A stretch of 34,618 nt of DNA, taken from Acidimicrobiaceae bacterium. Lineage in GTDB: Bacteria; Actinomycetota; Acidimicrobiia; Acidimicrobiales; RAAP-2. Where the stretch lies: assembly GCA_003133685.1 (NCBI GenBank), contig PKYQ01000010.1, forward strand, positions 81,456-116,073, in the 5' to 3' direction. The notes below the pieces were generated by a model. It made no database searches, had not been told where the DNA came from, and saw nothing but the letters and a program-made list of their open reading frames with translations. The translations under genes and the position numbers were made by a program. This document shows positions 30,942 to 33,186 of this stretch, in pieces (position 1 is the first letter of the stretch; every line of letters starts with the position of its first letter).

Positions 30942-30985
30942 CTCACCCACGAGATCACAGTGCGTTGGAGTACTCCGATCCCTGC

Positions 30986-30991
30986 TAGAGT
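30986..30991 (+). promoter_or_regulatory. -10 box of the DEAD-box helicase gene
   Basis: TAGAGT would start transcription near 30997, giving a leader of about 80 bases before the ATG at 31079. The palindrome GGAG-TA-CTCC (30967-30976) sits just upstream, and a short stem GAGTTG/CAACTT (31047-31052, 31062-31067) precedes the AGGAG. Confidence 0.4.
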
Positions 30992-31078
30992 GCAATGACT
31001 GTTTCGCCGCACATCGCGGTGGAGACCGATTCGACTGTAAAACCTCGAGTTGGGCTCATCTCAACTTGTAGGAGTTAT

Positions 31079-32803
31079 ATGTCTATGTCCTTTGCCGCGC
31101 TCGGCGTGCCGTCCAATCTGGTCGAACACTTGAAACAACGCGGCATTACCGAAGCCTTCCCCATTCAAGAGGCCGCGCTTCCTGACGCACTTGCCGGACG
31201 CGACGTCGTCGGCAAGGCGGTCACCGGCTCGGGCAAGACCCTGGCCTTCGGACTGCCCCTGATGGCACGCCTCACCAAGGCCCGTCCTCGCAAGCCCGTC
31301 GCCCTCGTGCTCGTGCCCACGCGCGAACTGGCCGCCCAGGTCCAAAAGGAATTGGCCCAGCTCACCGACGACCACGGTCGTCGCGTGATCTGCATTTATG
31401 GCGGCACCTCGTACAACGTCGCCCGAAAGGCCCTCAACTTCGGCGTCGACGTCGTCGTCGCCTGCCCCGGCCGCCTCGAGGACATGCTCGAACAGGGCGC
31501 CCTCGATCTTTCGTCCGTGACGACGGTCGTCGTGGACGAAGCCGACCGCATGGCCGACATGGGTTTCTTGCCGTGCGTACGTCGAATCGTCGGGGCCACG
31601 CCTCGCGATCGCCACGTGATGTTGTTCTCGGCCACGATGGGTCCGGACGTCAAGTCGCTCGTCAAGGAGTTCACCCACGACGCCGTGATCCACGACGTCG
31701 TGGGCGACGAAGCCCCCAATGACGTCGACCACTACTTCTGGCGCGTGGCGCGCGAACAGCGCCCCCAGATCACGGCCGACATCGTCGAAGAGTACGAGCG
31801 AGCACTCGTGTTCACCCGCACCAAGCACGGCGCTGACCGGTTGGCCCGCCAACTCGAAGAGCGCGGCATTTCGGCCGTGCCCCTGCACGGTGACCGCACG
31901 CAGGCTCAGCGCGAGCGAGCACTTCGCAGTGTGAAGAACGGCCAGGTTCAGGTCTTGGTCGCGACTGACGTCGCCGCGCGCGGTATCCACATCGAACTAC
32001 TTCCCGTCGTCATTCACTACGACCCACCGGCGCAGGCGACCGACTACTTGCACCGCTCTGGTCGCACCGGTCGCGCCGGCGCCACCGGCGCCGTCATCTC
32101 CCTCGTCGGAGAGGACGTCATCGGGCAGGTGAAGCGACTACAGAAGGCCCTCGGCATCGAGACCTCCATCGAACGTCGCGAAGACGCGCCGGCGATCCGT
32201 CTGGGCGCCGTCGACGACGCCGTGGCCGCGGAACGTTTGGACGACCGTGGTGGCAAGGGCCGCTCCGAGCGTTCCACCCCGCGCGAGCGCGAGCACGGTC
32301 CGCGTGGATTCGAGCGCGGCGCGCGAAGCGACCGCAGTTTCTCCGATCGCGGTCCGCGACCCGAGCGAAGCACCACGCGCTCGCGTCCCGAGCGAGGCTT
32401 CTCCGATCGACCGGAACGCGCACCGCGTGTCGAGCGATCATTCGCCGATCGAGCTCCGCGACCCGAACGAAACGATCGGGCTCCTCGCGCCGAGCGAGTT
32501 TTCACTGATCGAGCACCACGTCCCGATCGCTCAAACGTGCGTGACGCGCACTTCTCCAAGGGCGCCAGCCCGGCGCGTGGCAGTGAAGCGGTCGTGAGCT
32601 TCTTCAACGACGCGAAGGGTTTCGGTTTCGCCAGCGATGACAAGGGCGACGATCTGTTCATTCACTTCTCGAACATCGTGGGAGACGGATTCAAGTCACT
32701 CGCCCAAGGACAGAAGATCACCTTCGAAGAGGCCAGTGGTCCCAAGGGACGTGAGGCTCGTAACGTACGCGCCGTCAGTGGCGGCCGCGAGCGTCGTCGC
32801 TAA
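31079..32803 (+). CDS. DEAD-box RNA helicase with C-terminal cold-shock domain
   Basis: 574-residue RNA helicase. Core (about 1-370): Q-motif region FPIQEAALP, motif I AVTGSGKT, PTRELAAQ, CPGRLEDML, motif II DEAD, motif III SAT, LVFTRTKHGADRLA, ATDVAARGIHI and motif VI HRSGRTGRAG. Then a disordered Arg-rich linker (about 380-500) with repeats of the form F-(S/A/T)-DR-(A/G)-PR-(P/A/V)-(E/D)-R. The C-terminus (about 503-568) is a cold-shock OB fold with KGFGFA (RNP1) and DLFIHF (RNP2). AGGAG lies 4 bases before the ATG at 31079; ATG at 31085 is possible. An open frame back to 30995 is rejected because that ATG is too close to the -10 box. Likely role: RNA unwinding or ribosome assembly, perhaps in the cold. 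Confidence 0.93.
   Translation: MSMSFAALGVPSNLVEHLKQRGITEAFPIQEAALPDALAGRDVVGKAVTGSGKTLAFGLPLMARLTKARPRKPVALVLVPTRELAAQVQKELAQLTDDHGRRVICIYGGTSYNVARKALNFGVDVVVACPGRLEDMLEQGALDLSSVTTVVVDEADRMADMGFLPCVRRIVGATPRDRHVMLFSATMGPDVKSLVKEFTHDAVIHDVVGDEAPNDVDHYFWRVAREQRPQITADIVEEYERALVFTRTKHGADRLARQLEERGISAVPLHGDRTQAQRERALRSVKNGQVQVLVATDVAARGIHIELLPVVIHYDPPAQATDYLHRSGRTGRAGATGAVISLVGEDVIGQVKRLQKALGIETSIERREDAPAIRLGAVDDAVAAERLDDRGGKGRSERSTPREREHGPRGFERGARSDRSFSDRGPRPERSTTRSRPERGFSDRPERAPRVERSFADRAPRPERNDRAPRAERVFTDRAPRPDRSNVRDAHFSKGASPARGSEAVVSFFNDAKGFGFASDDKGDDLFIHFSNIVGDGFKSLAQGQKITFEEASGPKGREARNVRAVSGGRERRR
32320..32540 (+). repeat. Degenerate repeats encoding the helicase linker
   Basis: Five imperfect copies of a unit of about 10-13 codons encode F-S-D-R-G-P-R-P-E-R-like peptides: FSDRGPRPER, FSDRPERAPRVER, FADRAPRPER, NDRAPRAER and FTDRAPRPDR. 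The high Arg with alternating acidic residues suggests an RNA-binding or condensate-forming linker. Confidence 0.75.
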
Positions 32804-32814
32804 TATCGCAATTC

Positions 32815-33186
32815 ATGTCTGAGAAGCCACTCGTCGATCCACACCTCGGTCCGGCCCCCGATGACCTCTTGATTGAGGATCTCATCGTGGGTACCGGCGA
32901 GGAAGCCACGCCCGGTCGTCGCGCCGTCGTTCATTACGTCGGTGTCGGTGTCACGAGTGGCGAAGAATTCGACGCCTCCTGGAACCGCGGCGACACCTTC
33001 GAGTTCCCGCTCGGTGCCGGTCACGTCATCAAGGGTTGGGATCAAGGTGTCGTCGGCATGAAAGTTGGCGGACGACGTCGTCTCGTGATCCCAGCGCATT
33101 TGGGCTACGGCGATCAGGGCGCCGGCGGCGTCATCGCACCCGGTGAGACCCTGATCTTCGTCGTCGACTTGCTGGAATTGCGTTAG
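32815..33186 (+). CDS. FKBP-type peptidyl-prolyl cis-trans isomerase
   Basis: 123-residue single-domain FKBP, a proline isomerase aiding protein folding in the cytoplasm (no signal peptide). Family landmarks: VVHYVGV, GEEFDASWNRGDTFEFPLGAGHVIKGWDQGVVGMKVGGRR and LVIPAHLGYGDQGAGGVIAPGETLIFVVDLLEL, with the pocket Tyr, Asp, Phe, Val, Trp and Tyr in place. The ATG is 11 bases after the helicase stop; TAATAT at 32801-32806 overlaps that stop and could be a -10 box for a near-leaderless transcript. The stop is nested with that of the convergent Lon-domain gene (TTAG, 33183-33186). Confidence 0.96.
   Translation: MSEKPLVDPHLGPAPDDLLIEDLIVGTGEEATPGRRAVVHYVGVGVTSGEEFDASWNRGDTFEFPLGAGHVIKGWDQGVVGMKVGGRRRLVIPAHLGYGDQGAGGVIAPGETLIFVVDLLELR

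Follow-up and report, generated by a model that had tools for sequence, protein, structure and literature searches.

Does a single bacterial gene encode both a DEAD-box RNA helicase and a cold-shock domain (CSD), how widespread is such an arrangement, and how might the synthesis of the resulting protein be set? These questions are raised by a locus in a stretch of 34,618 nt, referred to here as the window, from an Acidimicrobiaceae bacterium (assembly GCA_003133685.1, contig PKYQ01000010.1, positions 81,456-116,073, + strand). The open reading frame concerned (31079-32803) encodes 574 aa; it starts with the ATG at 31079 and is preceded by a Shine-Dalgarno (SD) sequence, AGGAG, at 31070-31074. 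Like all features described below, it lies on the + strand.

The fused protein

The original prediction was that one protein contains a helicase core, an Arg-rich linker and a complete CSD, and this was borne out by Pfam searches, by the motifs and by an AlphaFold model. Pfam identified a DEAD domain (aa 28-192, 31160-31654; PF00270, 159.6 bits), a Helicase_C domain (aa 235-334, 31781-32080; PF00271, 100.9 bits) and a CSD (aa 504-565, 32588-32773; PF00313, 66.5 bits with a cut-off of 27), all of them far above cut-off. The model was built from an alignment of 29 fused proteins (A1), in which the window protein was joined by 28 of the best 80 of 572 related loci, and a Pfam CSD is present in all 29. 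In the model the core is confident, the linker is disordered and the CSD is five-stranded; its pTM is 0.54, and no arrangement of the domains was therefore read from it.

With regard to the helicase core, its two RecA-like domains have the features by which DEAD-box proteins are recognised, namely the Q motif and motifs I, Ia, II (DEAD), III (SAT) and VI, and Q30, TGSGKT, PTRELA, DEAD, SAT and HRSGRT.RAG are invariant across the 29 proteins of A1. Motif V of DEAD-box proteins usually has an Asp (ARGxD). Here it reads ARGIH, and His304 (31988-31990) is invariant in 29/29 proteins of A1 and in 50/50 of a second alignment, A5, which is described below. Since the remaining helicase motifs are intact, we take His304 to be a probable lineage variant of motif V. 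The best PDB matches of the window protein found with Foldseek include Hera, CshA and DbpA, and its top NCBIfam scores are those of RhlE2 (331, cut-off 925), CshA (327.6, cut-off 646), DbpA and RhlE (321.1, cut-off 743), every one of which is under its curated cut-off. The window protein resembles RhlE/CshA-type helicases in its core, its usual motifs, its best NCBIfam scores and its disordered C-terminal extension, RhlE2 and RhlE being helicases that carry C-terminal extensions, but it differs from them in its C-terminal CSD and in the ARGIH form of motif V. With DbpA and CsdA (DeaD), the latter a cold-shock helicase, it has in common the plan of a helicase core followed by a C-terminal RNA-binding module. 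In DbpA helicases this module is the DbpA domain, as stated in the available text of one report (PMC8190605), whereas Pfam detected no DbpA domain in the window protein, whose module is a cold-shock OB fold instead; rRNA specificity is not implied. The core is followed by a partly helical motif, AIRLGAVDDAVAAERLDDR (aa 372-390, 32192-32248; helix at 380-388 in the model), recognised in the A1 alignment. It is kept, with changes, in the rows of A1 down to L023 and in L027, it is absent from rows L024-L026 and from L028 onward, and in the inner clade it is more conserved than the linker.

The CSD had been predicted to be an intact cold-shock OB fold with both RNP motifs, and that is what we found. 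Besides exceeding the PF00313 cut-off, it retains the KGFGF and LFIHF motifs, which we take to be RNP1 and RNP2, its five strands are modelled in blocks mostly with a pLDDT of at least 90 (one at 77), and, taken alone, it is matched by cold-shock proteins of known structure (best E 1.8e-19). Although a complete CSD with both RNP motifs is common to the window protein and the CspA family, the CSD is here tethered to a helicase and not free, and it scores below the cut-offs of CspE (69.7 of 120) and CspA (58.2 of 130); it is therefore not a CspA-type protein, by which is meant a small protein that stands alone and passes the curated cut-off. Standalone CSD proteins are still present in the source genome.

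Helicase core and CSD are connected by a disordered linker rich in Arg, Asp and Glu (aa 377-499, 32207-32575), in which pLDDT is below 50 nearly throughout. The five Arg-rich repeat units that had been predicted in it are real when compared with shuffles: PRx[ED]R occurs five times (shuffle mean 0.15, maximum three in 10,000 shuffles), and the strict unit DRxPRx[ED]R four times, against at most one in shuffles of the same residues (units at 32345-32530). They are, however, a local elaboration. The strict unit is present in 4 of the 28 other fused proteins of A1 (L009, L010, L012 and L027), and the Arg content of the linker is 19-30% in 24 of the 28 (lower in L033, L040, L051 and L080), so that the repeat is less well preserved than the composition and disorder of the linker. 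A DNA tandem repeat was considered and rejected, as TRF found none.

The predicted likeness to phase-separating Arg-rich tails holds in part. The linker is disordered and Arg-rich, as are the tails of condensate-forming helicases, but the composition of aa 373-500 (25% R, 18% D+E, 5% aromatic residues and one RGG) means that it is better described as a polyampholyte than as a classical RGG tail. It is conceivable that the protein is a condensate scaffold, in which the linker and two RNA-binding modules cause RNA-dependent phase separation and the ATPase of the helicase dissolves the droplets. Such a role would agree with the length, disorder and Arg-richness of the linker, and a precedent exists in E. 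coli DeaD, which according to the accessible part of its report undergoes phase separation in vitro and is a marker of condensates inside cells (PMC12758526). Nevertheless, we consider it unlikely, given that the linker is near charge balance, has few aromatic residues and a single RGG, and varies from 25 to 175 aa among the 28 other proteins; in nine of these it measures just 25-64 aa, which means that a long sticky linker is no requirement of the architecture.

The helicase stop codon ends at 32803, and 12 nt farther on, at 32815, begins a gene for an FKBP-type peptidyl-prolyl isomerase (32815-33186; PF00254). Among the 25 loci L009-L033, 17 have this gene directly 3' of the helicase gene, with which it may share a transcript.

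Spread and origins of the fusion

A comparison of genomes showed that the DEAD-CSD combination recurs. Within the genus, 56 of the 61 genomes, one of them an assembly chimera, have a CSD that belongs to an open frame 348 aa or more in length. Helicase and CSD were found in one frame at 37 of the 63 genus loci L129-L191, and at many of the remaining loci the sequence compared ends before the position of the CSD. One of the 37, L189 (G315:C78), is chimeric and was not counted as an independent fusion; in this assembly chimera the N-terminal half of a paralogue helicase and the C-terminal half of a window-type helicase are joined around the DEAD motif. Among the five genus genomes without a long CSD frame, the CSD of G341 and G314 lies in shorter frames, and in G338, G299 and G311 no such frame contains one; the contigs of G299 (L173) and G341 (L133) end within the helicase gene, before a possible CSD.

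It had been assumed that helicases and cold-shock proteins are normally separate, the spread of their fusion being unknown. In the class, however, the fusion is not rare: in an even sample of 75 genomes, at least 13 carry it (G000, G055, G063, G067, G072, G043, G052, G027, G060, G032, G028, G044 and G016; that of G063 was deduced from coordinates and frame length). This number is a lower bound: in the class and phylum samples alike, the CSD frames inspected were those of at least 400 aa and that of G634 (373 aa), less four longer ones that scored below the Pfam threshold (G060:C72, G021:C359, G648:C3 and G652:C141). Long CSD frames without a helicase occur in G046 and G007 of the class sample. 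A sample of 60 genomes from the phylum included five of the class, the source genome among them; the fusion was found in one of the other 55 (G655), and six further CSD frames inspected in these 55 genomes have no helicase. The fusion is thus not unique to the window. An artefact of binning or sequencing was rejected as well, given how many genomes share this architecture. In agreement with the prediction that this is not a characterised system, no paper describing a DEAD-CSD fusion was found among those listed from the open-licence PMC literature, as judged by titles and the first parts of abstracts. The available part of a survey of cyanobacterial DEAD-box proteins describes C-terminal extensions and makes no mention there of a cold shock domain or Csp.

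The second alignment, A5 (n=50), contains the paralogue L002 and 48 further loci besides the window protein. Neither A1 nor A5 includes L019, L061, L075 and L082, which extend past the ends of their contigs. In A5, only the window protein has a CSD match. According to a quick tree, without bootstrap, of 97 cores (the long-branched L002 was dropped), the CSD label needs nine changes, at least four of which are forced by well-supported branches, and in an earlier tree of 78 rows, made in the same way, it needed five, two of them forced. By these trees, the fusion was gained or lost several times in the class.

This coming and going would suit a CSD that is a generic RNA anchor, exchangeable with an RRM or a basic tail and adding affinity only, in which case the leader described below would be ordinary control of a helicase gene. 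It would also suit the fact that 13 of the 49 other A5 proteins carry an RRM (RRM_1 match) at the same end and that 36 have neither RRM nor CSD. On the other hand, the CSD is almost always kept within the genus, and in some unfused relatives csp genes lie beside the helicase genes, which points to Csp specifically. We therefore regard a generic anchor as possible, but not as probable.

The neighbouring csp genes are informative about where the fused CSD may come from. A csp gene is located directly upstream of the helicase gene in L086 and in two Streptomyces plasmids (L119 and L120, two records of the 10 listed among 956 matched), and among the loci searched it is found nearby in other arrangements in L065, L050 and L076. 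The two plasmids have the same order of csp, DEAD-box helicase and SCO5918-family gene, with a CBS-domain gene inserted in L120. The same two activities are joined in Streptomyces by gene order and in Arabidopsis by contact between AtRH7 and AtCSP3, according to the accessible text of the latter report (PMC4846089); both cases involve two polypeptides, unlike the window fusion. Furthermore, in L112, L113, L211 and L213 an AGGAG followed by ATG or GTG stands at the beginning of the fused CSD, in L031 a GGAG followed by GTG, L227 has a similar start, and L209, L210 and L040 have kept a Met at the CSD with no clear SD. An SD and a start codon left before a fused CSD are what would be expected if a downstream csp gene had been absorbed, and we infer that adjoining csp and helicase genes merged in this way. 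At the six loci with both a start codon and an SD, fusion and free Csp could both be made from one gene. That free Csp made from such internal starts is the real product of many of these genes, the fusion being incidental, nevertheless seems very improbable. The window linker has no Met, and no SD-like stretch precedes its CSD, so that the fusion is the expected product of the window gene.

A conserved leader with two predicted folds

Alignment of the upstream DNA of relatives revealed a strongly conserved stretch, the 5' leader at 31006-31078, which was no part of the original prediction. Before it lies an extended -10-like element, TGCTAnnnT (30983-30991), whose T, G, T, A and last T are invariant in 18 aligned upstream regions; a scan for the sigma-70 consensus gave no match, and we interpret the element as a putative promoter. 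The leader begins with hairpin 1 (31006-31020), which has five pairs and in which 99% of cells are paired among 60 leaders. It is followed by element A (GAGACCGATTCG, 31022-31033), element B (CGAGTTGGGCTC, 31046-31057) and element C (CAACTTG, 31062-31068), the last of which adjoins the SD. Comparative pairing indicates that B takes part in two folds, pairing with A in fold I (98% of cells) and with C in fold II (94% of cells). B can pair with A or C, not with both, and the two folds are therefore predicted to be mutually exclusive.

Comparison of 60 distinct leaders shows that both predicted pairings are conserved. With hairpin 1 and fold I taken together, 98.3% of the pairs are standard (96.8% in shuffles, 28-45% when slid), both sides are changed in 15 cells (shuffles 2.3) and the covariation score is 0.155 (shuffles 0.120); for hairpin 1 and fold II the corresponding values are 96.3% (93.4% in shuffles, 26-42% when slid), 22 cells (shuffles 4.1) and 0.218 (shuffles 0.157), it being understood that kinship of the sequences can by itself push these statistics above shuffles. 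Of the doubly changed cells, 14 belong to two pairs of hairpin 1 and a single one to fold I; fold II contributes eight, all in one pair that is changed from A-U to G-C in eight leaders. Pair types were matched by 40 of 500 shuffles for fold I and by 134 of 500 for fold II, and the number of both-side-changed pairs of fold II was reached by 190 of 500. Unaligned A:B duplexes in 12 mostly diverged leaders all have 9-13 pairs. The A elements of L183 and L184, which have changed letters, pair over 12 and 13 (2 and 1 of 500 shuffles as low), and the duplexes of L172, L181, L185, L029 and L030 were equalled by 33-68 of 500 shuffles. The window leader itself folds at -32.7 kcal/mol (z -3.2).

A different explanation for the conservation would be that this stretch codes for an N-terminal extension of the protein. 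An in-frame ATG at 30995 opens an ORF of 602 aa in the window, and in 48 of the 60 leaders the frame stays open from hairpin 1 to the start. However, leader lengths are 0, 1 and 2 modulo 3 in 24, 23 and 13 of the 60, on which ground the extension was rejected; moreover, small differences of one to a few bases occur in loops and spacers while the stems stay paired, and AGGAG is placed just before 31079. We consider a coding extension to be barely credible.

The leader could not be assigned to a known family. Rfam gave no match at gathering score, the best permissive matches (E 0.53 and 3.3) being unrelated, and for this reason a known leader family of the cspA type was rejected; the loci of nine relatives yielded two tRNAs only at gathering score. 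An intrinsic attenuator was also rejected, as the two terminator-like sites both lie inside the coding region. No paper describing a structured RNA linked to DEAD-box genes was found among those listed from the open-licence PMC literature, as judged by titles and the first parts of abstracts, and the words helicase, cold shock and Acidimicrob are all absent from the main text of a survey of 104 RNA motifs.

A sequence model (R1) located the leader in 55 of the 61 genus genomes, with one match each except in G235, where the second match is near a contig end; with one match per genome, a regulon element is not supported within the genus. The helicase start follows the leader in all 57 loci L129-L185 (contigs shorten the leader in L169 and L182), and the leader can be read in L184 (G055) and L185 (G332) though R1 has no match there. 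In G309 it is cut by the contig, and G311, G314 and G338 have none. Searching 65 loci with a structure model (R2) placed it directly before the helicase start in L012, L029, L030, L031 and L032 (E 2.5e-18 to 1.7e-4), with a weak match in L051 (0.04) and nine other listed matches (E 0.17 to 3.5) that we take as chance. R2 reached more loci than a sequence-only model, which in 22 loci found L012 and, weakly (0.027), L051, where the match lies apart from the helicase gene. A search of the source genome with short motifs hit 67 places at two mismatches or fewer and is hence uninformative. Order-wide and with strict filters, R2 matched 13 of 347 genomes, in 3 of 191 genera. Two of these matches are in another family: in G523 (L202) the helicase is fused, and in G403 (L203) it has no CSD, which shows that leader and CSD are not obligately linked. 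The firm leader rows fall in one clade of 27 rows (SH-aLRT 99), 26 with a CSD and L203 without, and L051 lies outside it. Close relatives have the neighbours ClpP, tRNA-Leu and FKBP in common; in L026 and L028-L032 neither ClpP nor FKBP was matched, and the leader is still found with the gene. The tRNA scan covered these loci except for the short L028 and L030.

Other helicase genes were seen to have conserved upstream stretches. The 13 RRM-bearing loci (A6; e.g. L035:1757-1940) have one of their own of about 180 nt, which has GCCGCAC...GGTGGAG.CC in common with the window leader and, in L035, has no Rfam match at gathering score. By eye, the 160 nt or less upstream of the helicase start are alike within the pairs L038/L044 and L074/L081 and unlike the others. 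The helicase genes of the class may carry lineage-specific leaders.

Folding was calculated for 57 leaders, three of the 60 being skipped as they misfit the fold II columns. In co-transcriptional folding, fold I forms once B has been made in 56 of the 57, and the full-length minimum contains hairpin II in 50 of the 57. Fold II is lower in energy than fold I in 53 of the 57, and the preference is larger in the cold, so that a simple thermometer opened by cold is not supported. As to which fold is the open state, the start codon speaks for fold I and the SD against it: the former is freer in fold I (0.72 vs 0.37; 50 of 57 leaders), while the latter is not (mean 0.30 vs 0.42 in fold II; fold I higher in 24 of 57), and a combined accessibility measure favours fold I in just 35 of 57. 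A two-state switch is therefore plausible, its folding being calculated and its use presumed, with start codon and SD pointing in opposite ways. The thermosensor leader of E. coli cspA, which is much longer than the leader here, is likewise part of a two-fold mRNA for a cold-shock RNA-binding protein; the window leader differs from it also in having no Rfam match and in its calculated preference in the cold for fold II, which may or may not be the open form. In the available part of a report on cspA, its mRNA has two folds and CspA itself stimulates cspA translation in the cold (PMC9947658). This action is positive, and the sign of a feedback cannot be transferred to the window leader.

Proposed mechanism and meaning

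The architecture is a recurrent variant in one actinobacterial class, and the leader with its two exclusive predicted pairings is the less expected part of the locus. The explanation that we consider best, and on balance probable, is that the gene encodes a one-chain, ATP-driven RNA chaperone whose synthesis is set by a two-fold 5' leader. To judge from its family and intact motifs, the DEAD-box core would open short, over-stable RNA helices, and the CSD, on its long, flexible, charged tether, would bind the freed single strand and block its re-closing, so that a step done elsewhere in bacteria by two separate proteins would become local. The leader would set synthesis post-transcriptionally. 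Fold I (A:B) would be possible as soon as B is transcribed; once the full leader is made, it could be displaced by fold II (B:C), which is in most cases the more stable of the two and has a predicted outer pairing that extends to the start codon. The simplest use of this would be a feedback, which we favour, in which the protein's own remodelling of RNA moves the leader from one fold to the other: if RNA-remodelling activity were scarce, the first-formed fold would stay, and if it were abundant, the stable fold would be reached. Either fold could be the ON state, and cold is a possible signal.

A more specific proposal, which we put forward as doubtful, is that the loop is closed, i.e., that the leader is a direct substrate of its own helicase-CSD protein and that refolding from fold I to fold II meters the translation of that protein. 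If this were true, it would be the cell's unused capacity to unfold RNA that the leader senses, and not temperature or a metabolite.

What makes the fusion of interest is that the helicase and Csp, the two main bacterial tools for RNA in the cold, were repeatedly merged in one chain in one class, with apparent intermediates in the form of neighbouring genes and then of fusions that keep the csp start site. The proposal that helicase and Csp cooperate becomes directly testable through the length of the tether. Finally, the leader provides a compact, conserved candidate for a two-state RNA placed before an RNA-remodelling enzyme, and it bears on the question of self-control by mRNA refolding.
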